A stretch of 50,370 bases of DNA. It comes from a virus. Below, in pieces: positions 1 to 50,370 of the stretch (positions are counted from its first letter, which is position 1; the number at the start of each line of letters is the position of its first letter). Below the pieces are notes generated by a model that searched no databases, was not told the origin of the DNA, and was given only the letters and a program-made list of their open reading frames with translations. The stretch covers positions 1-50,370 of IMG/VR virus record IMGVR_UViG_3300025096_000031. One strand, 5' to 3'. Both the position numbers and the translations under genes were made by a program.

Positions 1-143
1 AGATCCTAAAACATATGATCCTAATTATAAAGCACCCGTTGGATATAAGACAAGTGAGTATGCTGCTGCGGTCCGTAAATGGCGTCCTGTAAATAGAGAT
101 AATACTCTATTGGATGATTATACCCCCGAAATGGAAGAAGAGT
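1..143. repeat. Left copy of the 143-bp terminal direct repeat
   Basis: Positions 1-143 match 50228-50370 with an offset of 50227. The single difference is C at 127 against T at 50354, the third base of a Pro codon, so it is synonymous. A coding frame runs through both copies. The simplest reading is that the two ends are one locus and that the genome is circular in the assembly (circularly permuted or terminally redundant). A true short terminal repeat is possible but less likely, because the repeat lies inside a gene and stops where the window stops. Confidence 0.95.
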
Positions 144-3100
144 CATCTGTTCTATTGGAGCAGATGGACAACTATGTCTATCCTACATTATTCCCCATAA
201 ACCCAGATGCTGCTACGCCTGATCCTTCTACCTGGACGGAGAAGAGTGGCAACGAGGCATTCCAGGAGGCAAAGTTAAGGGGAGAAGTCCTGGAGTTTAG
301 AAATGAACAGGAGGCTATGGCCTTTGCAGAATCTAAAGGTAGTGGAGATTGGAAGTCTGTACCAGAGGAACCAGATCCACAAATGGATCTAACAATAGGT
401 AAGCCTGTTGAATATAAATCTGCTTTTGCAGAAAAGATTTTGGCATATGATTCATTGCAAGAGAAATGGGTGGTAGATCCTAATGTAGGTTATGATGATT
501 TTCAAGCCCCATCAATGAAGACAGGATATTATGATTCTAAAGAACAGAAGTGGATGAATCCAGAGATTACCAGGAATCTGCCTGACGGATGGGACCGCAG
601 AACAAGTAATATGACTCACGATGAGCATAAAAAAGCGATTGATATATATGATAATGTTGATAAGGATATGTATATCCCGTTTAAGGAAGAAATTGTCAAT
701 ATACCCCTGCAGCCGCCTGATGTAGCAGGTAAGCAGTATGAACTCTCAAGTGCTGATGATTATAAACAATATTACTATGCAACGGCCATTAAGGCTCTTT
801 CTGAATATTATGAACTACCAGAGGTGTATTTCGATCAGGAAGATGTTGATGCCTATGCTGCAGCGAAAAGTCTTTCTGTAGGCCAGGCAACGGTTGCTGC
901 AATAAACTCAACTTTATCATCTGTATCTGTTGGTATAACAGAAAACCTATGGGATCCAACCCCTAATCAGGATGTCATAGCGAAACACAAACAAATGTTA
1001 CCATATAGTAAGGAAGGCCAGGGTTGGCCTAAAATACAACGATCCTTGTTTGCGGTAGGGCATACAGGCGCAGAGGTTTCAGCATATTTAGGACCAACAA
1101 AAGCATTAGGATTGTTGAAACTGAAAAATGTCCCTGTAGGTTATGCTGCTATGATGAGATCTGCAGCAGTTTTTGGTAGTGTAGGTGGTGGTCGGAGAGT
1201 ATTTGATCCAGATGAAAGGGAACATATGACGCTCTCAAAATGGTTGGTTGGTACCACATTGGATACTGCATTAGGATCCGCATTCCCATTTATGGGTAGA
1301 CTTGGTGGTGAGGTATTAAAGACACCTAATACATATAGGGCTTTCGCAAATTATATGGCACAAAGCACGGCATTGACGGGTGGGATGACCGCAGTAGGAT
1401 TTGCAGATGGCCTGGCTGCATATATGATGGAAAATCCTAATCAGACATTTACCGAGGCTTTTAAGACGGTTGGTGAAGGTGTTGTAGATCCAGAGATGTT
1501 ATTCCAATCGTTTATGACAATGTCTATACTGCACGGATTGGGTGCAGGACCGAGATTCTTTAAAGGTGGAAAATTGAAAGCAGAAGAGTTGGCCAAGTTA
1601 GAAAAGGTTGTCGGGTTAATGTGGGAAGATGCCCCATTTGATATAAAGAAGAAACCAAATACGGTCCCTGAAATGGTTGAATACCAGGAGAAATATAATC
1701 TATGGGTAGAGTCCAGGGGGAATAAGGCAGAATATCAGATAGAGAACGGAAAACGCATCGAGCATAATGAAAAGCGTGATGCATTAAATGAAAAAAGATT
1801 AATGGACAGGGATTATTACCAACAAGAATTAGATGCAATGGATTGGAAGGATGTGTTTGAATGGGCGAATGCAAGGCAGCAGGATTATTTCAGACATAAG
1901 GGGATGTTATATAAGGTTGAGTTAAAGTACCCCCGTCCCGTTATTAAGACATTAGAAGAGGGCGTAGCCCATTCCCAATGGATTGCGAAAGAGAAACAGA
2001 AGGTCCAAATGGAAATGGACCAATTTGAAAAGAGTGGTCGGGTTAATAAGAATTTATTGGGTGATAAAACGGTGGAGCAGTATGAGTCTGGCCTGAAAGA
2101 CAAGATGGAGAAACTCAACATTATGGAAAGTGATGTTGGGGCCGTCATTAGGAAGGCTGCTGATGTAGAATTAGATGGTGGAAAGGCCAGGAAGGGAGAT
2201 CCAGATAAGGTAGTTATCCAGGAAGATATATTAAAATCAGGTCTTGAGGATGCTGTAGAACCACCAAAGGAGATCACAAGCAAGGAAATCACAGAAGGTA
2301 AGGGCCTGGGTGATAACTCTATCACGATATTGGAATCAATGTTTAATAAGCAGGAGGCTTTTACAAATGAACAAGCGCAAACGGCATCAATTCTCGAAGG
2401 ACATATAAAAGAAAAATTTGATGCTATGGCAGAAGGTAAGCCGCAGTTATTAAAAATGATTCAAGATTCTAAACTTCCAGATGGAACAAAAAAACGGATC
2501 CTGGGCGAATGGTATGATGTTAGGGTTGAAAAAGCAGCAGGACAGAAGATGGCCGAAGATCCAGGAAGAGAAAAACAGATAGAAGGATTTGTAAAAAAAG
2601 AAGGTAAAATAACAGAAGATTCAGTTGAATGGCAGGACCATAAAAGTAAGGATGGTAAACGGACCATAGCGCAGTACACGGAGATCGGTGATAGTCCTAC
2701 GGGGAAAATATATATCCGAAGGAATCCTGATGGTACATATCGTGTGTCAAAATTTGTTGAGAAGGCAGATGGTCCTGTACTTTATTCTATGGGGGATAAG
2801 GTGCATAAGGATTTCAATAGTGCATTAAAATCGGCGGAGATGGAAGTAAGCAGCAGTAAACCAGATGTACCAAATAAGACTTGGACAGGAGATGAATACA
2901 AGCAAACACACAGACCAAGAGAAGATGGACCAACTGCAAGTGATTTAACGGGTAAAGATTCATTTGCACCAGATGATATCTATGAAAATCCACAACATTA
3001 TATAGGTGTTACTCCAAAGGATCCTGCATATAAAGAAACCATAGATGCATTCCAGGCTATGAGAAATGCAAAAGGTAATCCAGATGCAATGATTACTGTG

Positions 3101-6100
3101 TATAGAACGGGACCAAAGAATGAGTTGAATGATGGTGATTGGATAACGCTATCAGAATCATATGCCAAACAACATAGTAAGCACCCAACAGATCCAGAAC
3201 AAGATATGCCTGTTCATAAATTTGAGGTCCGTGCAGGTGATATGAAGTGGTCTGGTGAAGTGTTAGAGGAGTGGGGATATTTCCCTGATATAATAAAGCC
3301 AGGTGTAAAAAATCCTGGGGCAAGAAGGAAACTGATAAAGGAGTTTGATGCAGGGAAAAGGCAATTGTGGGAACTTACTATGGATGAGAGAGGCTTAACA
3401 CAATTAGGCGAAGATGCGCTCACAAAGAATGTGCCAGAACTATCTAAACTTGACAAAGAACATAAACAATCAGTTTTGGATGCGTTAGGACGGGGTGAAG
3501 ATGTAAGGCCAGAAGTATTAGAATCTTTCGGTATAACAAATACAGGTCGAAGTAAGCCACCTGGTGATCCCGAATCGGAACCTGTAGTCCCTGTTCAGCA
3601 GCCTGGCAAGGTGAGTAAGTTTAGGAAAGAAAAGGATCCAGAGAAGAGATATGAGATATTGCGTAAGGGTAGGGTTCAAACATTAAATGATATAGCAGGT
3701 GCAAAATTAAGCAAAACGGATAACGCAGTATTTGAAGGCACCCATAAGCAGATCACATTAGTAGAGAGCAAGGATGATCCTTCTGTTGTTTCTGTACTAT
3801 TTAATGGATCGAAGGAACCACAAAATAAGGCACAGAGAGATTGGGTGGCAAAAAATATGCCAATGAAGGGTAGAGATTTTATTCAACAAAAAATTATTGG
3901 TGAGCAGAAGGGTTGGGTATTATCAGAGAGAGGAAATAAACTATACGACCAGGGGCAAATAAATAAAGCGGTCAAATCAGGTGGTATGACACAGAGTGAG
4001 TATGATACACAGGTCAAGCCTACCAGGCCTAAATCATATCGGGGATCACAGGTGGTTGTACTTGATAAAGATCAATCAAGGGTGAAAGACACAGATCTAT
4101 ATAGGGTAAAACAAAAAGGTGGGACCTTTAAGAATATAAGTGATGGTCGCTATGTGATCTATGACAGTAAGGGTAATAAGCCATTAAATGATGCTCTTAA
4201 TAAGTTAGGTGAGGGCGGTAATGATATAGGACCATTTAAGAATAGTAAGGCTCTTGATAATATCCAACCAAGTAGAAATAATGAATTAGGTAATGATGGT
4301 GTTATTGTAGGTTATAGTCGGGGAGCAGGGGGCCACGGAGAATCAAGCACTAAAGATTACACGGCCTGGTTGAGTGATGGCCTCAATGCCGTATCTGTAG
4401 ATGCAAAATATATTGATATGTTCCAAAAGTTTTTTGGTCCAGACCTGACATATAAATTCAGCAAAACTAACCCAAATATAAGCGCAGTTACTATTTTCGA
4501 TTCCAAAGGTAAAGAAATTGGAATGGTGATGCCTATCAGGAATGATAAAGCAGATGCACCACCTAATATCCAGGGGTATTTAGGGGCCAAGCAGAGTGAA
4601 AAGGCCAATAATAATCCGTTCCTGGCAAAAGGTGGAAGTGGTAAGGGTGGTTTAGGATCTAAAAAATTTACAAGGGAAGATAAACAAGGCAGCGCTAATG
4701 ATCAATTTGAGATGGCTGACCTTAATGATCCTATCAAGAGGGCTGACATAGGTAACGACCTGATCAGGAATCTATCCTTAAATAAGGGAGAGAATGTTAG
4801 ATTTAAGAGAATAAAGAATTTTGCAAAGAATGCGGTGGCGATATTCTTTCCCAAGTCAGAAATCATTAGGGTTAACTCTTTAAAAGATGTAGACGATCTC
4901 TCTCACGAAATAGGCCATTATTTGGACATCAGTTTATTCGGAATATCAGAGTCGATGAGAGTAAAAGGACACGATCAGTTGGCTATCCAGGTAAAGAAGT
5001 GGCGGAATATGAAACAGGGTACATCAAAGGACACCAAGATGAAAGTATTGGTGAACAAGTATGGCCAGGAGGCGGTAGATAGGTGGGAGGAACGGTTAGA
5101 GGTCCAGGATGAATTGATATCCTTCCTACAGAAAAGATTTTACCCTGAATTGACAGTTAAAGAGGGAATTGCAGAATTTGTTTCTGATTATGTAACTAAT
5201 CCCAAAAATGCAGCAAAAGAGGCCCCAAAGTTTTTTGAAATGTTTGAGGGTATAATTAAGGATACACCTGTTCAGAAAGCATTAGTACAGGCCAGGGACC
5301 AGATGAAGGATTGGGATGCTCTGGATCCAAGAGTCCAGATAGAATCTACAATTCATCGTAAAGGTGAAGAAGGATGGTTAGAGGGTATTGTAAAAGAAGT
5401 GTATGGGGATGCATACTTTAACCTGGTAGACTTTACTCAACCCCTGCGTAGAGTAACGGACAATTTTATGGCAGACAATCCAGGTGCTAAAGGTCACGAA
5501 TTGGTTATCAATCAGTTTTTGTCAAACCTGGGGACAGAAGGTAAGGCACAACAATTCCTGGATAATCATCCATTTAGAATAACAAATGGGGAGATTACGA
5601 TCAGAGAAGATATTCCAGGGCTTATGAAAATACTGCAACCATTCATAGCAGGTGGAGGCACAAAGATTAAGGCATTAGAGGGCTACCTGGTTGCTCAAAG
5701 GAACATAGAATTACATACAAGATATAAGGGCCAGGCGGCTACATTGGGCCTGGAGAAGTCGCGTCAAGTTCGGGAACTGTATGAGAAGGATTTCCCAGAA
5801 TTAAAAGAAGCAGCAGAGCAAATATATGAGTACCAGGACGCCGTACTTGACTATTATAAAGATTCGGGGATGTTGAGTGAATTGGATGTTGATAATATTA
5901 GACAACTAAATAAGTTTTATATTCCGTTTAATCGTTATTTGCACGGCGAAGAAATGTATAAGGTTGGTAGCCCTGGTGGTAAGTATAGTCTTGATAAGTT
6001 TTTAAACGACAAGTCTTATCAAAAGGTTCGGGGTATTAAGGGTGCAAAAGAAGATGTGATGCCGCCATTAGAGCAGATTATAGCCAATACATTCCAATTG

Positions 6101-8272
6101 ATCAGCGCAGCAGATATGAACAGGACAAAGGTTACATTGGTCAATAATCTGTTGTTGACAGGAAGTGGCTCTGGAGTACAGAAGATACCGAATAGTAAAC
6201 TGTTTGTAACAGAACAAAAAGATCCAAATACAGGGGAAGTTATCAATAGGATCTATCAGCATAGGAAGGTCCCAATTGAAGGTCCTGGTATTATATCAAT
6301 GAGGGTGAATGGTGAAATTGGTTATTATGAAGTCACTCCAGATGTGTACAAAGCCTTTCAACATCTAAACACAACAACAAGCAAGTATCTCAAGGTGGCT
6401 GCTTTACCTTCCACAATATTAAGGAAAGGTGCCGTTGAATATAATCCACTATTTGGTTTAAGAAATGTACCCAGGGATATAGGATCATCTATATTCTATA
6501 CAAAGCACGGATATAACCCCTTCCATTTTATTACAGGGGCCAAAAGTTATAATGCTAATGATATTGTTTTTCAAAAGTTCCTGGCAAGTGGTTCAGCACA
6601 AAGTTATTTAGTTGGTATTGATAAACACCTGGATGTGGGTAAGAACAGTATGTATGCACATCCTGCGTATCAGGCAATAGATGGTTGGCGGCCTAATGGT
6701 TTAAATCCATTTAAGCAGTTCAAGAAGTTTAATTCATTTACAGAAACGGCTAATAGGGTTGGTGGATTTGCTAATGCACTCAATAAAACAGGAGATGTGT
6801 ATCTTGCAATGGCTGAAGGTAGATCTATTGCTGCAGATTATGGGTTAAGAGGTGCAAGTATGCGTAATGCAGGTGCATTATGGCCGTTCTTGAACGCCAG
6901 GATTCAGCATACAAAACAATTTGGTATTGCACACAAACCAGAAAATTTAGCCAAGACGATCACAAAGGGTGCTATATACTATGGCGCCCCAACTATAGCC
7001 AATTGGATGTATTGGCATTCATCTGAAGAGTTGGCTGATCGGTATGCTGATATGCCGACCTGGAGAAAATACGGATTCTTTAATATACCTATACCAGGCA
7101 GCCAATATACATTCAGCCTACCAACGGGCGGTTTCGGCTATGTATATGGTAAGGCCCCAGAAACATTTTTGAATTACCTGAATGATCCTAATTTTGGTTA
7201 TAGGGAAATATTGGAATCATTAGCATCAGGATGGGAACAGATTATGCCTGTAGGTGGCGGTGGAGGATTTGCAACCGAAATACTCCCTTATCCTGCACAA
7301 TTGATTGCAGAAAATGTTGTTGGCCACGATTTTTTCACAGGTCGGAGAGTTATACCCAGGGAAATGGAACACCTGGATAAGTCACTACAGTATGATGAGA
7401 ATACACCTATACAATTGAGGTGGATTGCTGATAAAATAGGAATGTCCCCAAAGAGGCTGCAGCATTTTGTTTCTTCTACATTTGCAGGGACGGGTGATTT
7501 TGCTATGGATGTTGTAGATGACCTGGCGGTGGCCACAGGCCTGTCGGACCATAGGTATGCTACCTGGACAAAGTTGTCTGATTATCCATTTATGAGGGCG
7601 TTTGTGAGTAGGATGCCTTATAGAGGTAAGCAAGGCTTAACATATCAAAAGATGTGGGAGAACCTGGATGGTTTACAAACAATAGATAATACAGTTAATA
7701 AGTGGATCTCTTTAGATAATAGGGATGCAGGTGGAGTCAAGGAAAGAATAGATAATTTAAGTAGTGGTGAGGTGCCTAAACAGTTAGATAAATATCTTTC
7801 AAAAGGTGATAATATGCAGAAGTACCAATGGATGCATACTGAATTCGATTCTGGTTACCCTGATCTACAGGGGAATCCAAAGTACACAACGAATATGAAA
7901 CAGATCAATAAATTCCACGATGTAGTGAAAATGATAGGAGATATCAATATCCTGGCTATGAAAGAAAAGGGGTATATGACGGACCAACCTATGGCCGCAG
8001 ATTTTAAAAGGTTGTGGAAGAATATGAGTAAAGAAGAACAGGCAGAATATAGGGGTAATGAAAAGTTGCTCTCTGGCCAGGATATCGTATTCCATAATAA
8101 TCTTATTATAACGGACATCACCAAGCAGTTGTACAATGCTATGGAAAGTGGTGATAATTTTGTATTGGACCAATCGTTGATGCTTACTGATGATCTTATA
8201 AAGAAATATTTAGTAGATTTTCCTTTGAAATTTGGTAAAAAGAATATCAAAGAGAAAATCCTACAGAAGTAG
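1..8272 (+). CDS. Giant polyvalent injected virion protein, main part (continues from 49407 across the genome join)
   Basis: The frame is open from base 2 to the stop at 8270-8272 and joins the ORF starting at 49407, giving about 3030 residues in all; the TTG at 110 is internal. Seen in the protein, using full-length numbering: a segment near residues 1300-1375 (about 3080-3310) with Tyr-Arg, GDWITLS and EEWGYF blocks, resembling the ADP-ribosyltransferase of polyvalent proteins; a zincin motif HEIGH at residues 1909-1913 (4904-4918); and a C-terminal segment near residues 2530-2580 (about 6760-6920) with the pattern ending PFLNARIQ, resembling the large polyvalent protein associated domain 38. 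Long charged helical stretches lie between. Such multi-domain proteins are known in phages and conjugative elements and are thought to be delivered with the DNA to act on the host. Its place after the internal virion genes fits ejection. The catalytic assignments are inference from motifs. Confidence 0.85.
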   Translation, partial: DPKTYDPNYKAPVGYKTSEYAAAVRKWRPVNRDNTLLDDYTPEMEEESSVLLEQMDNYVYPTLFPINPDAATPDPSTWTEKSGNEAFQEAKLRGEVLEFRNEQEAMAFAESKGSGDWKSVPEEPDPQMDLTIGKPVEYKSAFAEKILAYDSLQEKWVVDPNVGYDDFQAPSMKTGYYDSKEQKWMNPEITRNLPDGWDRRTSNMTHDEHKKAIDIYDNVDKDMYIPFKEEIVNIPLQPPDVAGKQYELSSADDYKQYYYATAIKALSEYYELPEVYFDQEDVDAYAAAKSLSVGQATVAAINSTLSSVSVGITENLWDPTPNQDVIAKHKQMLPYSKEGQGWPKIQRSLFAVGHTGAEVSAYLGPTKALGLLKLKNVPVGYAAMMRSAAVFGSVGGGRRVFDPDEREHMTLSKWLVGTTLDTALGSAFPFMGRLGGEVLKTPNTYRAFANYMAQSTALTGGMTAVGFADGLAAYMMENPNQTFTEAFKTVGEGVVDPEMLFQSFMTMSILHGLGAGPRFFKGGKLKAEELAKLEKVVGLMWEDAPFDIKKKPNTVPEMVEYQEKYNLWVESRGNKAEYQIENGKRIEHNEKRDALNEKRLMDRDYYQQELDAMDWKDVFEWANARQQDYFRHKGMLYKVELKYPRPVIKTLEEGVAHSQWIAKEKQKVQMEMDQFEKSGRVNKNLLGDKTVEQYESGLKDKMEKLNIMESDVGAVIRKAADVELDGGKARKGDPDKVVIQEDILKSGLEDAVEPPKEITSKEITEGKGLGDNSITILESMFNKQEAFTNEQAQTASILEGHIKEKFDAMAEGKPQLLKMIQDSKLPDGTKKRILGEWYDVRVEKAAGQKMAEDPGREKQIEGFVKKEGKITEDSVEWQDHKSKDGKRTIAQYTEIGDSPTGKIYIRRNPDGTYRVSKFVEKADGPVLYSMGDKVHKDFNSALKSAEMEVSSSKPDVPNKTWTGDEYKQTHRPREDGPTASDLTGKDSFAPDDIYENPQHYIGVTPKDPAYKETIDAFQAMRNAKGNPDAMITVYRTGPKNELNDGDWITLSESYAKQHSKHPTDPEQDMPVHKFEVRAGDMKWSGEVLEEWGYFPDIIKPGVKNPGARRKLIKEFDAGKRQLWELTMDERGLTQLGEDALTKNVPELSKLDKEHKQSVLDALGRGEDVRPEVLESFGITNTGRSKPPGDPESEPVVPVQQPGKVSKFRKEKDPEKRYEILRKGRVQTLNDIAGAKLSKTDNAVFEGTHKQITLVESKDDPSVVSVLFNGSKEPQNKAQRDWVAKNMPMKGRDFIQQKIIGEQKGWVLSERGNKLYDQGQINKAVKSGGMTQSEYDTQVKPTRPKSYRGSQVVVLDKDQSRVKDTDLYRVKQKGGTFKNISDGRYVIYDSKGNKPLNDALNKLGEGGNDIGPFKNSKALDNIQPSRNNELGNDGVIVGYSRGAGGHGESSTKDYTAWLSDGLNAVSVDAKYIDMFQKFFGPDLTYKFSKTNPNISAVTIFDSKGKEIGMVMPIRNDKADAPPNIQGYLGAKQSEKANNNPFLAKGGSGKGGLGSKKFTREDKQGSANDQFEMADLNDPIKRADIGNDLIRNLSLNKGENVRFKRIKNFAKNAVAIFFPKSEIIRVNSLKDVDDLSHEIGHYLDISLFGISESMRVKGHDQLAIQVKKWRNMKQGTSKDTKMKVLVNKYGQEAVDRWEERLEVQDELISFLQKRFYPELTVKEGIAEFVSDYVTNPKNAAKEAPKFFEMFEGIIKDTPVQKALVQARDQMKDWDALDPRVQIESTIHRKGEEGWLEGIVKEVYGDAYFNLVDFTQPLRRVTDNFMADNPGAKGHELVINQFLSNLGTEGKAQQFLDNHPFRITNGEITIREDIPGLMKILQPFIAGGGTKIKALEGYLVAQRNIELHTRYKGQAATLGLEKSRQVRELYEKDFPELKEAAEQIYEYQDAVLDYYKDSGMLSELDVDNIRQLNKFYIPFNRYLHGEEMYKVGSPGGKYSLDKFLNDKSYQKVRGIKGAKEDVMPPLEQIIANTFQLISAADMNRTKVTLVNNLLLTGSGSGVQKIPNSKLFVTEQKDPNTGEVINRIYQHRKVPIEGPGIISMRVNGEIGYYEVTPDVYKAFQHLNTTTSKYLKVAALPSTILRKGAVEYNPLFGLRNVPRDIGSSIFYTKHGYNPFHFITGAKSYNANDIVFQKFLASGSAQSYLVGIDKHLDVGKNSMYAHPAYQAIDGWRPNGLNPFKQFKKFNSFTETANRVGGFANALNKTGDVYLAMAEGRSIAADYGLRGASMRNAGALWPFLNARIQHTKQFGIAHKPENLAKTITKGAIYYGAPTIANWMYWHSSEELADRYADMPTWRKYGFFNIPIPGSQYTFSLPTGGFGYVYGKAPETFLNYLNDPNFGYREILESLASGWEQIMPVGGGGGFATEILPYPAQLIAENVVGHDFFTGRRVIPREMEHLDKSLQYDENTPIQLRWIADKIGMSPKRLQHFVSSTFAGTGDFAMDVVDDLAVATGLSDHRYATWTKLSDYPFMRAFVSRMPYRGKQGLTYQKMWENLDGLQTIDNTVNKWISLDNRDAGGVKERIDNLSSGEVPKQLDKYLSKGDNMQKYQWMHTEFDSGYPDLQGNPKYTTNMKQINKFHDVVKMIGDINILAMKEKGYMTDQPMAADFKRLWKNMSKEEQAEYRGNEKLLSGQDIVFHNNLIITDITKQLYNAMESGDNFVLDQSLMLTDDLIKKYLVDFPLKFGKKNIKEKILQK

Positions 8273-9238: not shown

Positions 9239-9433
9239 ATGCCAGAGATGATATTATATACACCAAAAGAGGTATCGGAGATATTAAAAATTTCGTATCG
9301 GAAGGTATTAGATCTTATTAAAGATGATGAAATAAAGGCCGTTGAAGTACCTGGGGGCTATCGTATTAAAGCACAGGATCTGGAAGAGTGGCTTAACTAT
9401 AATAAAAAGGATAAGGTTAATAATGATAACTGA
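9239..9433 (+). CDS. Excisionase/MerR-like helix-turn-helix DNA-binding protein
   Basis: 64 residues with the single-domain winged HTH layout: YTPKEVSEILKISYRKVLDLIKDDEI is the HTH, followed by a wing (VPGGYRIKAQDLEEWL). This is the HTH_17/excisionase pattern. With no integrase in the genome, a regulatory role is more likely than excision. It is the first gene of the rightward replication block, after a 57-base intergenic gap, and an AGGA lies before the ATG. The last 11 bases overlap the exonuclease gene, so the two are probably co-translated. Confidence 0.85.
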   Translation: MPEMILYTPKEVSEILKISYRKVLDLIKDDEIKAVEVPGGYRIKAQDLEEWLNYNKKDKVNNDN

Positions 9434-10412
9434 AAAACAGAGAATAGAACGCCGCCAGGGGATAGGCGGATCTGATATCCAACACTTATTTAGTATAGAG
9501 CCGTATGGCTGCCAACGATATTTATGGTTGGATAAACAAGGGAATGATCCTGATTACCCGATCCTTTCTGAAGGTGCTATTAAGCGTGGTAATAAATTAG
9601 AAGATATTATAATTGAAGAATATCGTGAAGTGACAGGCAACAATGTCAGGAAGGTCCATAGGACGCTAACTCACAAGACAATCGAATGGGCCAGGGTACA
9701 TTTAGATGGTGAGATAGTAGGAGATCATAGTTATAATCGTGAACCATCCAGGAATGGCCATCCGCCGCTTGGACCAGGCGTCCTGGAATGTAAAAGTGTT
9801 GGCCGCCAGATGTTTATGAAGATAAAACAGGAAGGGATCCCAAACAGTTGGATCCTTCAGATGCAATATGGAATGTTTATTACAAATCGTTCCTGGGCAA
9901 GTATAGCGGTATTGTGGGCAGAGCAATGGGAGTTTATTACATTTAATGTTGATAGGGATGAAGAGATCATCAAGGCTATTCAATATGAAGGGAATAAATT
10001 TTGGGCCAAAGTAGAAAATGGTCCATCACCAGACCGCCTGGATCCGAAGGATAAAAGATGTTCCAGGTGTCCTTACCGCACATCGTGCCAGGGCGCTGCA
10101 TTATTAGGCCAGGTAGCAGACAATGGTGGGGATATCCATTTTGATGATACACTCACTCCTATGGTCCAGGAATTGGTTGAAATGGAACTTGTGGCCACAG
10201 AGGTTAAGGAGCGTATAGATAAAAAGAAAACTTTAATAAAAGATAAGATTGGCGATAGGCCTATGGTTGATTGCACAGGGTATCGTTTACACTATAAGCC
10301 AATTGAAACGAAACGAATAAACACAAGGCGGTTAAAATCAGAAGAGCCTGGTGTATATGAGAAGTATGCGACAGTTTCAGTTTCAAGGCCATTCAAGAAA
10401 ATAGCAAAATAA
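9423..10412 (+). CDS. YqaJ/lambda-type recombination exonuclease with probable 4Fe-4S cluster
   Basis: 329 residues from the ATG at 9423 (an upstream in-frame ATG at 9342 lies inside the HTH gene; AAGG precedes 9423). A member of the PD-(D/E)XK superfamily that resects double-stranded ends so that an annealing protein can load. Visible motifs: GIGGSD (residues 13-18), RGNKLED with Glu60, LDGE with Asp95, and the core E-x-K at Glu122-Cys-Lys124. Cysteines at 30, 213, 216 and 222 follow C-xn-C-x2-C-x5-C, the arrangement of the iron-sulphur staple in AddB, Cas4 and Dna2 nucleases. The Bet gene follows 9 bases downstream, as usual for exonuclease/annealase pairs. Nuclease role is well supported; the cluster is inferred. 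Confidence 0.9.
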   Translation: MITEKQRIERRQGIGGSDIQHLFSIEPYGCQRYLWLDKQGNDPDYPILSEGAIKRGNKLEDIIIEEYREVTGNNVRKVHRTLTHKTIEWARVHLDGEIVGDHSYNREPSRNGHPPLGPGVLECKSVGRQMFMKIKQEGIPNSWILQMQYGMFITNRSWASIAVLWAEQWEFITFNVDRDEEIIKAIQYEGNKFWAKVENGPSPDRLDPKDKRCSRCPYRTSCQGAALLGQVADNGGDIHFDDTLTPMVQELVEMELVATEVKERIDKKKTLIKDKIGDRPMVDCTGYRLHYKPIETKRINTRRLKSEEPGVYEKYATVSVSRPFKKIAK

Positions 10413-10421
10413 GGAGTACCG

Positions 10422-11333
10422 ATGAGTAATAGCATAATTAACAAAGAAACCGCAATGGTATTGACCGACGATCAGAAGGATCTGATCAAAAGAACAGTAG
10501 CAAATGGTTGCACAGATGATGAATTGTCCCTGTTCTTATACCAATGTGAGAGATCTGGCCTGGATCCTTTTTCCAGACAGATACATATGATCAAAAGGGG
10601 CAATAGGGCTACCATTCAGACAGGCATTGATGGTTATCGTGCCATTGCTGAAAGAACGGGTAAATATGCAGGGAATGACGAATATCTATATAATGGTGGC
10701 CAGACAGAATATCAACTCCTGGCAAAAGGTGAAAGGCAGCCAAAGGTTGCAACGGCCTGTGTCCGTAAAATAGTGGGTGGTGTGGTGTGTGATTTTAAAG
10801 CATCTGCATCCTGGCTTGAGTATTGCCCAAAAGGAAAGCAAGATTATATGTGGAATAAAATGCCATATTTAATGCTTGGTAAGTGTGCAGAGGCCCTGGC
10901 GCTGCGAAAGGCGTTCCCCAATGATCTATCAGGGATCTACACGGATGATGAGATGGCCCAGGCAGAAGTACAGAGTATTGAAACAAAAACCAAAGGCAAT
11001 GTTGACGACCTAAAAAGGATTATAGCGCCCGTTGTTGGTGATACACCTTATGAGGATTTTGATCGGGAAAATGGTGATTTTAAGCCCGAAGAAGAAGAAG
11101 AAGAGCGTCAGCCAACATTGATTGACCAGATCCGTGAATGTTTAGGCTCAAAGTATGTTAGTGATGAAACGAGGGATAAAGTAGGTCCCTGGTTGGAAAA
11201 GAGTCCTAACTATGATGCGGTTGAAATTTGCCTTAATAAGTTAAGAGGAATGATCGATGAAGGAGAAAAAGCCCAAAAAGAAGAGCCAAAAAAAGGCGGA
11301 CCAGGGGAAGACGATGACGACCTGCCATTTTAA
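10422..11333 (+). CDS. bet: Bet/RecT-type single-strand annealing protein with SSB-like C-terminal tip
   Basis: 303 residues. The N-terminal 180 residues fit the lambda Bet family: DDELSLFLYQCERSGLDPFSRQ near the start, then IQTGIDGYRAIAERTGKYAG, and MPYLMLGKCAEALALRKAFP before the variable region. It would anneal complementary strands made by the upstream exonuclease. After a run of glutamates (about residue 224) comes a linker and a helical part, and the protein ends GEDDDDLPF. That end copies the acidic tip of bacterial SSB (DFDDDIPF in E. coli), which recruits repair and replication proteins. Ribosome binding site AAGGAG before the ATG. Confidence 0.92.
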   Translation: MSNSIINKETAMVLTDDQKDLIKRTVANGCTDDELSLFLYQCERSGLDPFSRQIHMIKRGNRATIQTGIDGYRAIAERTGKYAGNDEYLYNGGQTEYQLLAKGERQPKVATACVRKIVGGVVCDFKASASWLEYCPKGKQDYMWNKMPYLMLGKCAEALALRKAFPNDLSGIYTDDEMAQAEVQSIETKTKGNVDDLKRIIAPVVGDTPYEDFDRENGDFKPEEEEEERQPTLIDQIRECLGSKYVSDETRDKVGPWLEKSPNYDAVEICLNKLRGMIDEGEKAQKEEPKKGGPGEDDDDLPF

Positions 11334-11341
11334 AATTGTGC

Positions 11342-11363
11342 TGCCTAATTATTACGGTAGGCA
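11342..11363. other. Short inverted repeat between bet and the replication gene
   Basis: TGCCTA at 11342-11347 pairs with TAGGCA at 11358-11363 around a 10-base loop. No T-run follows directly, so this is a weak terminator at best; it could be an operator or an RNA hairpin attenuating the next gene. Confidence 0.35.
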
Positions 11364-11405
11364 CAGTAGCATTTCTTCTAAAACAATAAAATGGTGGGTT
11401 AGCAA

Positions 11406-12284
11406 ATGATCCGATATAATGAAGTTTCAATAACTACCTGGATATCCAGGGATTTCACAACCCTGACACCACACGGAAAACTGTTGTGGCTCTATTTACT
11501 CACAGGTCCCATTAGAAAGCCCCTACCAGGCATATACAGGGCAGGAATAGGTTCTTGCACGGATGACCTGGGTTGGAGCGCAGATGCCTTTAAAAAGGCA
11601 TTTAAGGAATTGTCTGGTAAAAAGATGGCTATAGCAGATTGGTCGTCCAATGTAATCTATTTGCCGAATTGGGCCAAATACAATAGGCCCCCTGCTAATC
11701 CTAATATATTAAAGTCCTGGTTGGGTATGCTTGATTCCATTCCCGATTGTGATTTGAAAAACGAATATATCCAAACATTGGTGGGTGTGTCTTCAGATAA
11801 TAACACATATACTGAACTTATCAATGAGTGGGTTAATGAACGCCAGGACAAACTACATCGTGTGGAAATTAAAAAGGTGGTTCAGAAGGTCACCAGGGAT
11901 ATATCCCCGTACATTAGCCTGGCAGAGAGATATACTGCTGCAGTAAAGGAAGTATTCCCTAAACTGTCCATATTTAAGAATGGTCATATGCCAGAATCAA
12001 TGTTACAATCTGGGGCATCAGAATTAGAGAAACTTCACAGGTTGGATAAGGTTTCCCTGGAGTCAATGGAAGAGATCCTTGAATGGATTATTAGTTCATA
12101 TGATGAAACTGCTAATTTCAATTGGTTATCTAATCTTCAATCATTGAAATCCATTAGGCGTAAGTCTTCAAATGGTAATACCAAGTGGGAAAATATTGTA
12201 TTGCAATATGCAACACACCTTTCTAAAGGTAAGAAAAAAGATAGGGAGATAGACTATAGCGATGTCACAAATTCTCCAATCTAA
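11406..12284 (+). CDS. Phage replication initiator-like protein
   Basis: 292 residues. The N-terminal 100 residues match the HTH-type replication organiser domain of phages: a WISRDF start, HGKLLWLYLLTGP, PGIYRAG, DDLGWSADAFKKAFKEL and VIYLPNWAKYN. The C-terminal half (about 160-292) is helical and ends in a Lys-rich tail. Proteins with this head bind origin DNA or recruit helicase, and lie upstream of a helicase loader. The stop overlaps the next gene by 23 bases, which supports joint function. Weak ribosome binding site. Exact function inferred from head-domain resemblance and position. Confidence 0.65.
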   Translation: MIRYNEVSITTWISRDFTTLTPHGKLLWLYLLTGPIRKPLPGIYRAGIGSCTDDLGWSADAFKKAFKELSGKKMAIADWSSNVIYLPNWAKYNRPPANPNILKSWLGMLDSIPDCDLKNEYIQTLVGVSSDNNTYTELINEWVNERQDKLHRVEIKKVVQKVTRDISPYISLAERYTAAVKEVFPKLSIFKNGHMPESMLQSGASELEKLHRLDKVSLESMEEILEWIISSYDETANFNWLSNLQSLKSIRRKSSNGNTKWENIVLQYATHLSKGKKKDREIDYSDVTNSPI

Positions 12285-12762
12285 ACTCAATAAGGTCCAG
12301 AAGGATTATGTAGAGCAGTTAGATGCTTTTCTAAATGTTAATATGAATGATATCCAGGTAAAGAATTGGACAGTAGCACTTTCTAAATATAATGAAGATG
12401 TGCTGCGTGAAGGTTGGAATGAGTTTGTATATCAGGTCAGGCCAGGGTTAATGCCATCTATAACAGATTGTACAAAGATTATGGACCGCATTAGGTTGGA
12501 CCATAATAGGGAGATCCATAACGCTGCTAAAGCCCCAATAGAACGCACAGAAGACAACGCCCACCTACACGATTGGATTGCTGCTATAAGATATGGTTTA
12601 AATCAAAAGCGTGAGGGTAAGTGGAACGAAGGTGAGCGCCTGGAATATATGCTTGATATAGCAAAAGAAATTAAGTTAGATGTAGAGTCTATAGATGAAT
12701 TGGAAATAGATATTGCCAGATGGCGAAGGAATAACCCTGATGTCGAAACGAGTCCGATCTAA
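12262..12762 (+). CDS. Possible helicase loader / replication protein
   Basis: 166 residues, helical, with no P-loop. The region with W-x-A-L-S-K-Y-N followed by W-N-E-F and RPGLMPSITDC recalls loader or inhibitor proteins such as the G39P N-terminal family, but I cannot assign it firmly. It overlaps the replication gene by 23 bases. No DnaB-like helicase and no DNA polymerase is encoded in the window, so the phage must recruit host replication enzymes; a loader here would fit. Confidence 0.45.
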   Translation: MSQILQSKLNKVQKDYVEQLDAFLNVNMNDIQVKNWTVALSKYNEDVLREGWNEFVYQVRPGLMPSITDCTKIMDRIRLDHNREIHNAAKAPIERTEDNAHLHDWIAAIRYGLNQKREGKWNEGERLEYMLDIAKEIKLDVESIDELEIDIARWRRNNPDVETSPI

Positions 12763-14163: not shown

Positions 14164-14341
14164 ACTAACTATTGATGATCTGAAGGATGATATATTAAAA
14201 TTGATCGATAAGGTTGAGGCCCTGGAACAAAAGATTATCAATCTAAATTGGAAGGTTAATCTTAAATGTAATGATATGCAGAAAAAGATTGATAAGGTTG
14301 AATTAGGCTATGAATTTAAATTAAAACAAAGGAGTGAATAA
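14150..14341 (+). CDS. Short coiled-coil protein
   Basis: 63 residues with a clear heptad pattern (LIDKVEALEQKIINLNWKV, then MQKKIDKVELGY). Likely a small oligomerising protein of unknown purpose. GGAGG lies before the ATG, and the stop/start with the next gene is TAATG at 14339-14343. Confidence 0.6.
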   Translation: MPKSKLTIDDLKDDILKLIDKVEALEQKIINLNWKVNLKCNDMQKKIDKVELGYEFKLKQRSE

Positions 14342-14565
14342 TGGATGGACCATTTAAACATAAAGAAGGATTCGGTACATTGTGGTACCAGGATCAGGAA
14401 CAGGGATCTAACAGGCCCATTGCTAAAGGTAAGGCCACAACGCCTGATGGTGTCGAAGTTGAAATAGCAATCTGGAAGGGTAAAACCAAAAAAGGTGACG
14501 ATGTTCTCCAGGTAAGAATTGATCCACCATACCAGGGCGGCAGCCAGGATGAATCCCCCATATAA
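14341..14565 (+). CDS. Small beta-rich protein resembling DUF736-type proteins
   Basis: 74 residues. The sequence GFGTLWYQDQ, RPIAKGKATTPDGVEVEIAIWKG, then KKGDDVLQVRIDPP follows the layout of DUF736-like small beta proteins found beside single-stranded DNA metabolism genes in phages and plasmids. An OB-like fold and nucleic acid contact are possible but inferred. The start overlaps the previous stop and the end overlaps the RusA gene by 17 bases. Confidence 0.5.
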   Translation: MDGPFKHKEGFGTLWYQDQEQGSNRPIAKGKATTPDGVEVEIAIWKGKTKKGDDVLQVRIDPPYQGGSQDESPI

Positions 14566-14971
14566 TATTAAATTCATTGTTAGGGGAGATCCTAAAGCAC
14601 AAAAGAGGCATCGTAGCGGAAGGGGATATCATTATGATCCTTCCAAAGGTGACAAAGCAGACTTCCTGTTATTGGCTCATAAACATATCCCCAAGCAGCC
14701 CATAGAAGGCCCTATATTCGTAAAGGTAAGGTATTATATGCCTATACCCACTTCCTGGCCTAAATACCGCAAGAAGGCAGCAGAAAACGATCTTCTGCCC
14801 CATATTAAAACCCCTGACCTGGATAACTTGGTTAAGTTTACCCTGGATGCCCTGGCGCCGTATTGGGTAGACGACCGCCAGGTGTACCTAATGGATCCTG
14901 GTAAGTATTACTCACCTACCCCCAGAACTGAAGTGACTATTCGGCCAGATCTTCCAGATCCGAATCAGTAA
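14549..14971 (+). CDS. rusA: RusA family Holliday junction resolvase
   Basis: 140 residues from the ATG at 14549 with CAGG just upstream. The RusA active site is intact: Asp90 and Asp92 in TPDLDNLVKFTLDAL, Lys96, Asp100, followed by Asp108-Asp109. The N-terminal strand (IKFIVRGDPKAQKRHR) is typical. It would cut four-way junctions formed by the exonuclease/Bet pathway, freeing concatemers for packaging. It is the last gene of the rightward early block, and its final 35 bases overlap the end of a convergent gene on the other strand. Confidence 0.93.
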   Translation: MNPPYNIKFIVRGDPKAQKRHRSGRGYHYDPSKGDKADFLLLAHKHIPKQPIEGPIFVKVRYYMPIPTSWPKYRKKAAENDLLPHIKTPDLDNLVKFTLDALAPYWVDDRQVYLMDPGKYYSPTPRTEVTIRPDLPDPNQ

Positions 14972-49407: not shown

Positions 49408-50370
49408 TGCAAAGATTCGGAGTACCACAAACAAAAATAGATAGTGTACTTGCTCCTGGTAAGGAAGAGGAGAAAAAGCAAGGTGTCTTCAGGTTCGGTG
49501 TAGATCCTGCTGAACTTAAAACTCCTGTTAATGGCGATGGTGAACAGATCCAAGAAAGCATACCTGGTGAAGGTGCAAGTATTGATACTGTTATAGCGGA
49601 CCAGGCAGCGCAGCAGACGATAGACCAGGACTATGAGAATAGTAAGATTACTTCGACGCCTGATCAGGATCTCCCCATTACAGAAACGGAGGGTAAAAGT
49701 TCGGACCTATCAAATGATCTATTAAATAAGACTCCAGATCAACTGATGGATGATGAGATAAACACATTGACAGATGATGAAGAGTTTAATGTATGGTACC
49801 AGGGATGGCAGAATCAGATAAACGAGCATTATAAGAACAGAGATATTAGGGGCGAAGATGGATCCTTATTCCAAATGGGTGGACCAGACAATAAGATGGC
49901 TCCATACCCTTCAGAACCTAATAATATGATTAAGGCATATGATTACAAAGCCGCATATAAAGACGGGGTAGAACCTTCCCTACAAAAACATAAAGATGGT
50001 AGGCATTTTTGGCATTGGCCAAGCAAGTACAAAGATAAGGATCACCCTAATAGGTATGTAAGTACAGATAGTTATCTAAATGCATACGCACCAGGTATGT
50101 TAGGTGATCAGAAGATCCCAACAAAAATTAAGAAAATGTTATATGATATCCACCAGGAAACAGGTGGAAAGATGGATGAAACAGAAAGAAATACTGTGGC
50201 CTATAAGTGGTTACAGGCCAATGGAGTAGATCCTAAAACATATGATCCTAATTATAAAGCACCCGTTGGATATAAGACAAGTGAGTATGCTGCTGCGGTC
50301 CGTAAATGGCGTCCTGTAAATAGAGATAATACTCTATTGGATGATTATACCCCTGAAATGGAAGAAGAGT
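49407..50370 (+). CDS. Giant polyvalent injected virion protein, N-terminal part (continues at position 144)
   Basis: The ATG at 49407 overlaps the previous stop. The 321 codons here (the last ones repeated at 1-143) start MQRFGVPQTKIDSVLAPGKE and run on in frame to 8272. The first 110 residues are acidic and disordered; from about 125 there is aromatic-rich sequence (EFNVWYQGWQNQINEHY; GRHFWHWPSKYKDKDHPNRY) without a known domain. The full product is about 3030 residues and takes up about 18 percent of the genome. Confidence 0.9.
   Translation, partial: MQRFGVPQTKIDSVLAPGKEEEKKQGVFRFGVDPAELKTPVNGDGEQIQESIPGEGASIDTVIADQAAQQTIDQDYENSKITSTPDQDLPITETEGKSSDLSNDLLNKTPDQLMDDEINTLTDDEEFNVWYQGWQNQINEHYKNRDIRGEDGSLFQMGGPDNKMAPYPSEPNNMIKAYDYKAAYKDGVEPSLQKHKDGRHFWHWPSKYKDKDHPNRYVSTDSYLNAYAPGMLGDQKIPTKIKKMLYDIHQETGGKMDETERNTVAYKWLQANGVDPKTYDPNYKAPVGYKTSEYAAAVRKWRPVNRDNTLLDDYTPEMEEE
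50228..50370. repeat. Right copy of the 143-bp terminal direct repeat
   Basis: This is the copy of positions 1-143. Joining 50370 to position 144 keeps the frame of the giant gene open, because 50337 and 110 fall in the same codon phase counted from the ATG at 49407. The one synonymous mismatch (50354) suggests a strain variant or a read error at an assembly join. Confidence 0.95.

Follow-up and report, generated by a model that had tools for sequence, protein, structure and literature searches.

The locus analysed here raises the question of why a phage exonuclease with the cysteine layout of Fe-S nucleases (Exo) is paired with a RecT/Bet annealase (Bet) that ends like a bacterial single-stranded DNA-binding protein (SSB), and what that end might do. 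The window, meaning the whole stretch of 50,370 nucleotides analysed, corresponds to positions 1 to 50,370 of the IMG/VR virus record IMGVR_UViG_3300025096_000031. Bases 1-143 reappear as a direct terminal repeat at 50228-50370, with a single mismatch, and the same protein stretch is encoded by the first and last ORFs; the record therefore probably closes and represents a complete phage genome. An ORF of 2,720 aa (110-8272) continues across the closed ends. No nucleotide relatives were found when positions 1-25000 were compared with named phages. The features of the module are collected in Table 1.

Table 1. Features of the recombination module, in window coordinates.
Feature	Positions	Strand	Support
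Small HTH_17 DNA-binding protein, 64 aa, directly 5' of Exo	9239..9433	+	PF12728 3.1e-13
YqaJ/lambda-type exonuclease (Exo), 329 aa, D95-E122-K124, Cys30 + C213-x2-C216-x5-C222	9423..10412	+	PF09588, phrog_434, fold
C-x2-C-x5-C stretch (Cys213/216/222) of Exo, apparent clade-specific insertion	10059..10088	+	
RecT/Bet single-strand annealing protein (Bet), 303 aa	10422..11333	+	PF03837, TIGR01913
SSB-like C-terminal tip EDDDDLPF of Bet	11307..11330	+	DLPF invariant in four Bets, synonymous codons
DnaD-like helicase loader / replisome organiser	11406..12284	+	phrog_1701 3.8e-12
Module gene, 166 aa, ends SPI	12262..12762	+	same place in relatives
S1, 74 aa, small member of a phage ssDNA-binding family, lacks the family's SSB tip, ends DESPI	14341..14565	+	phrog_18154
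RusA-like Holliday junction resolvase, first ATG 14549	14549..14971	+	PF05866 1.6e-23 on ORF 14519-14971

Both Exo and Bet fall into known families, as proposed in an earlier note on this DNA. Exo matched PF09588 (7.1e-23, 82 bits, cut-off 22) and phrog_434 (4.8e-50) and stayed below the curated cut-off of TIGR03033, the lambda-exonuclease subfamily (51.8 bits vs 68.05); Bet matched PF03837 (2e-30, 106.3 bits, cut-off 24) and TIGR01913 (113 bits, cut-off 76.95). By alignment, D95, E122 and K124 are the catalytic D-E-K of Exo. Its predicted fold matched LHK-Exo (Z 19.7, rmsd 2.8, 176 residues aligned) and lambda exonuclease (Z 18.4, rmsd 3.2, 181 residues). Cas4 SSO0001 ranked lower (Z 12.7, rmsd 3.5, 163 residues, with 1-226 of the model placed on 12-190 of the chain), and EXO5 was also among the structural matches. 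In Bet, the annealing domain (about 1-182) is followed by an acidic linker, a region at about 239-282 that we infer to be small and helical-looking, a 20-residue linker and the tip; no PDB relative of Bet was found by sequence. Both genes are adjacent and always paired in the window's clade, and the order Exo, Bet, replication genes, small protein, RusA is common to its two subclades. The adjacent lambda-type exonuclease and RecT/Bet annealase, and the fold of Exo, are shared with lambda Red (Exo + Bet) and Rac RecE/RecT, whereas the four-cysteine insertion in Exo and a Bet that has its own SSB-like tip, and is not merely a receiver of that of SSB, set the window apart.

Some further features of the module concern protein ends and hosts. 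The product of the 166-aa gene had no family match in profile searches. Three module proteins of the window end in SPI (stops 12284, 12762, 14565), these ends overlapping the start of the next gene, and the 166-aa gene showed an [SC]P[IL] end in every relative read to its end, sister-subclade contigs included; such conserved ends may be a second C-terminal motif. The DnaD-like protein ends TNSPI in the window, whereas its homologues end NDEQPF (L214, 5758) and DGEPF (L215, 3530), which are weakly SSB-tip-like. The only host hint found was the contig of a sister-subclade module (L133, DKQR01000048.1) binned as Candidatus Marinimicrobia UBA7303, a binning that may be wrong.

Six cysteines are present in Exo. 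The four singled out in the earlier note (Cys30, Cys213, Cys216 and Cys222) do show the C-xn-C-x2-C-x5-C layout and spacing of the AddB, Cas4, Dna2 and EXO5 Fe-S nucleases, although they are a selection from the six; the other two are Cys284 and Cys123, which sits between catalytic residues E122 and K124. As in those nucleases, the layout surrounds a PD-(D/E)XK core, but the core of Exo is of the lambda-exonuclease/YqaJ line, with the cysteine set inserted in one phage clade. A Cas4-domain profile (phrog_1990) covers residues 30-225. In an alignment of 49 Exo-like ORFs, from which a truncated copy of the window (L001) was set aside, the four cysteines and the D-E-K were found in 22/22 distinct Exos of the window's clade (about 46-77% identity), whereas the Cys213/216/222 triple was absent from all 26 more distant Exos, mostly as a gap; the latter include those of Listeria phage A118, Marinitoga camini virus 2, epsilon15 and Geobacillus phage GBSV1. 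Among 31 YqaJ loci sampled independently from genomes, one of which had no ORF over the match, none showed a CxxCx4-7C motif (0/30). According to these counts, the insertion is clade-specific and the set was gained or kept as a unit, which would fit a metal site.

Invariance by itself is weak evidence for such a site, since Cys123 and Cys284 are likewise invariant in the clade; it is the layout that carries the argument, and by this the four-cysteine site is probably an Fe-S site, perhaps [4Fe-4S]. The Exo model is unreliable around the triple (pLDDT under 50 at residues 205-240). As the identity of the metal is not given by a cysteine cluster alone, and all six cysteines are invariant, the four could instead bind Zn, or just three of them could act as ligands, the site then being purely structural, a clip that takes part in neither redox nor Fe-S chemistry. 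We consider this rather unlikely, because the layout is that of AddB, Cas4, Dna2 and EXO5, and both the phrog_1990 and the Cas4 SSO0001 alignments extend over this part of the protein; in Zn sites, two CxxC pairs are usual. By analogy with AddB and Cas4, a putative [4Fe-4S] cluster would brace Exo close to where the DNA end lies. No Fe-S YqaJ exonuclease was described in the literature searched, which covered few subscription journals, and the four-cysteine insertion in a lambda-type exonuclease appears to be new.

The C-terminus of Bet reads GEDDDDLPF, confirming the near copy of the SSB tip (EDDDDLPF) reported earlier: as in SSB-Ct peptides, an acidic run followed by hydrophobic-Pro-Phe stands at the exact C-terminus and is conserved. 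Such a tip was found in 5/5 contigs of the window's subclade (window, L020, L213, L214 and L215), as EDDDDLPF in two, GEDDDLPF in two (L213 and L214, with the same end) and AEEDLPF in one, but on 0/23 complete Bets of the sister subclade, which stop about 35 residues earlier. Of the conservation in close relatives that the earlier note had made decisive, the cysteine part stood throughout the clade, whereas the tip was missing from most of these relatives. The tip-bearing members form one clade in the Bet tree (support 95/91; 15 rows, eight Bet rows without the trimming motif having fallen out) and in the Exo tree (84/86). As read from these proteins, the Bet tip is younger than the Exo cysteine set.

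Within the subclade, DLPF is unchanged while the preceding linker diverges. Across four Bets, whose identity falls to about 50%, its codons are GAC CTG CCA TTT, GAC CTC CCG TTT, GAT TTA CCG TTT and GAC CTG CCC TTT, so that those for Asp, Leu and Pro vary synonymously. The tip as an artefact of an overlapping gene was considered and rejected, as the +1-frame residues over it vary (TCHF/TSRF/IYRF/TCPF) while DLPF is constant; therefore, selection acts on the Bet frame. The +1 frame itself contains a 31-residue ORF (11314-11409) that begins within the tip codons and extends to the next gene. It is alike in L020, with many third-position changes, while L214 and L215 have a different, mutually similar open frame; it is possible that this ORF is an overlapping small gene.

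SSB-like ends were then counted on RecT proteins at large. Ends of the type [ILVM]PF were detected in 11/252 distinct complete RecT/Bet ORFs compared to 24/8,678 other ORFs of the same loci (all of at least 70 aa; Fisher p = 1.7e-9), a background that includes spurious ORFs and in which some of the 24 are SSBs. As these Bets were gathered by homology to that of the window, the rate of 4% is not valid for all RecT proteins. Bets cut by contig ends (L010, L079, L106, L114 and L150 among them) were kept outside the counts, and, as several loci are pieces of one contig, identical C-termini were removed before counting, a step that also merged near-identical contigs. With a stricter acid rule, 9/253 Bets passed; they fall into 8 of the 110 clusters formed at 60% identity, and one (L249) passes only with Ala before Pro-Phe. 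In a tree of 131 rows, the tip label required seven changes, at least four of these being forced by well-supported branches. In this sample, SSB-like ends on RecT proteins recur beyond chance and with several origins. Other examples are LDDDIPF (L097), SEDDDLPF (L153, an Acidobacteria MAG), DEKDIPF (L078) and KDEEVPF (L050), and no Exo of the window's clade was detected alongside any of these four. The tip is uncommon on RecT, given that among 299 evenly sampled Pseudomonadota genomes it was present under the strict rule on 0/12 RecT loci. The RecT tails of L143 (Devosia algicola) and L151 (Pelagibacterium luteolum) carry a doubled motif near the end (DFPFPDDDDFPGDRK; DDFPFPEDDDFPGDR) that is SSB-like but not terminal. 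A literature search covering few subscription journals returned no SSB tip on a RecT/Bet protein, and this recurrence appears to be a new observation.

The distribution of tips on the small proteins of the module was also analysed. S2, the small protein that precedes RusA in the sister subclade, showed an SSB-like tip in 9/9 contigs with a complete copy, ending DLPF in two and [ML]PWD[DE] in seven, so that 7/9 do not end in PF. No family was assigned to S2 at a meaningful E-value and no PDB match was obtained with Z >= 2, an absence that shows little, and no match was detected by tblastn in named phages; its description as an OB-fold SSB was dropped for want of a family or PDB match. In the window's subclade a different protein, S1, lies at this place (window, L215 and L214, the last with one ORF between S1 and RusA). 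S1 matched phrog_18154 ('single strand DNA binding protein') at 5.5e-4 in the window, 1.3e-7 in L215 and 3.2e-7 in L214, and the window's copy scored 6.3e-8 against a profile of eight other S1 cores that excluded it, while it was not recovered by a genome search at E <= 0.01. All three S1 copies readable in this subclade lack an SSB tip and are cut down to the core. A tip past the premature stop of L214, where the profile match crossed the stop, was rejected, as the DNA beyond has none.

Outside this subclade, in contrast, 65/71 S1 proteins passed the SSB-tip test, the remaining six having acidic/aromatic ends, DPFDDLDF, TEDDPF and DDDIPFS among them. The sample comprised 73 distinct complete proteins, window excluded (65 tipped, 6 atypical and 2 tipless, L214 and L215). 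Most were gathered with core-only queries, which kept the tip from biasing the sample; the initial six were matches of the full-length tipless L215 protein. The phrog_18154/phrog_7364 ssDNA-binding family, of which the window's S1 is a member, carries DDDIPF-type tips elsewhere, as in Klebsiella phage K21lambda1, Erwinia phage Faunus and Proteus phage Myduc (all DFDDDIPF), whereas the members in the window's subclade are core-only; in phages C72C1 and C75C1, a tipped S1 directly follows a tipless Sak- or Erf-like annealase.

Thus, tipless S1 accompanied tipped Bet in 3/3 cases, vs 6/71 elsewhere when all six atypical ends are taken as tipless (Fisher p 0.0013, a value that overstates independence, as the three subclade proteins are related). 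When whole records were scanned, four of them covered to 39.9 kb only, 7/7 with an [ILV]PF-ended Bet showed no other protein so ended, while of 11 with a tipless Bet four held a tip-ended protein, one was doubtful and six held none; by itself this comparison is not significant (0/7 vs 4/11, Fisher p 0.12). As at least 6/11 tipless-Bet records have no other tip-ended protein, a phage-encoded tip is dispensable. A PF00436 SSB was found in 4/50 records, with Bet tipless in all four. From these patterns, only one partner at a time seems to carry the tip, either the annealase or the small ssDNA-binding-type protein, an alternation that rests on one subclade with three related contigs in which S1 is readable. 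No alternation between a Bet tip and that of a phage ssDNA-binding protein was found in the literature searched, which covered few subscription journals, and it too appears to be new.

The best reading of these data is that the annealase has taken over the docking tip of the phage ssDNA-binding protein. Gain on Bet is favoured, though polarity is not proven, because S1 relatives are usually tipped and the outgroup Bets in the local tree are tipless. We put at about even chances that Exo and Bet form a two-component recombination module in which an SSB-type docking tip, carried by the annealase instead of the phage ssDNA-binding protein, would recruit SSB-interacting host enzymes. Phage DNA ends would be resected 5'-3' by Exo, and Bet would load on the 3' strand and anneal it, as expected from their families. 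The free EDDDDLPF end of each Bet subunit would be displayed to proteins with an SSB-Ct pocket, candidate host partners being PriA, RecO, RecQ, RecG, DnaG and the clamp-loader chi subunit, and restart or repair enzymes could reach the annealed intermediate without SSB. The proposal in the earlier note that the annealase acts as a docking hub is strengthened by the tipless S1 in an otherwise tipped family. Its further suggestion, that Bet replaces SSB on phage DNA, is supported only indirectly, by the lack of matches to the PF00436 SSB (OB-fold) profile across the record at E <= 10, but S1, of an ssDNA-binding family, is present.

The main rival to host recruitment is that the tip docks into the C-terminal domain of a neighbouring Bet, which in Red-beta is where SSB binds, zipping the filament or causing autoinhibition, with no host protein involved. 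RecT and Red-beta proteins themselves receive the SSB tip (PMC10711431, PMC8303780), and in the herpesvirus annealase ICP8 an FNF motif at the C-terminus docks into the adjacent molecule (PMC12409425); the junction of the Bet tip to a short C-terminal region through the 20-residue linker would suit such an arrangement. However, the sister Bets keep this C-terminal region without a tip while S2 is tipped, which suggests that the tip serves a partner in trans, and we regard self-docking as unlikely. That the tip has no function, being a disordered acidic tail whose DLPF end arose by chance or drift, is improbable: RecT tails are indeed variable and often acidic, but the DLPF invariance under synonymous change and the excess of such ends on RecT/Bet proteins described above argue against it. 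Still less probable is that a pocket of Exo takes DDDLPF in place of the Red-beta CTD contact with lambda exonuclease; the two genes are neighbours, paired throughout the clade, but Exo is equally conserved (about 46-50% identity) in the sister subclade with its tipless Bets, and four tipped Bets elsewhere have no detected Exo of this clade. Most improbable of all, we consider, are abundant Bet tips serving as decoys that titrate SSB-interacting proteins off host SSB to block anti-phage functions, for which the same tip would do and with which tips spread over unrelated phage proteins are consistent, but which needs neither an annealase as carrier nor the alternation.

Among known systems, T7 gp2.5-type annealing SSBs have an acidic C-terminal interaction tail and, like Bet, join annealing and acidic tail in one protein; their fold is unrelated to the RecT type to which the window's annealase belongs. 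According to PMC8093625, gp2.5 regions have no ssb genes. In phage HK620, Sak4 is brought onto SSB-coated DNA only if the phage SSB has its six C-terminal residues, NDYPPF (PMC5928155). There, too, the SSB-like tip of a phage protein is tied to an annealase within one module, but it is carried by the ssDNA-binding protein and recruits the RecA-like Sak4, whereas in the window it is on the RecT annealase. As RecT host range is reported to depend on recognition of the SSB C-terminus (PMC10711431), the annealases of these publications are receivers of SSB tips, while that of the window carries one.

As a tentative extension of the docking reading, the tip may be a transferable module. Normally carried by the phage ssDNA-binding protein, where it would recruit the annealase and host enzymes, it could jump to the annealase, upon which the ssDNA-binding protein would lose its own; the tipped RecT would become the recruiter, might not need a matching host SSB and might work across hosts, and Exo would independently have gained a Cas4/AddB-type Fe-S site.

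RecT annealases are genome-engineering tools, and their need to recognise the tip of the host's SSB restricts the hosts in which they work (PMC10711431). If the docking reading is true, a self-tipped annealase would be a natural way round the host-SSB limit, or a caller of replication-restart enzymes. The apparent loss of the tip from S1 together with its gain on Bet suggests that a docking signal can move between phage proteins, and such mobility would bear on why recombination proteins of this kind work in some bacteria and not in others.
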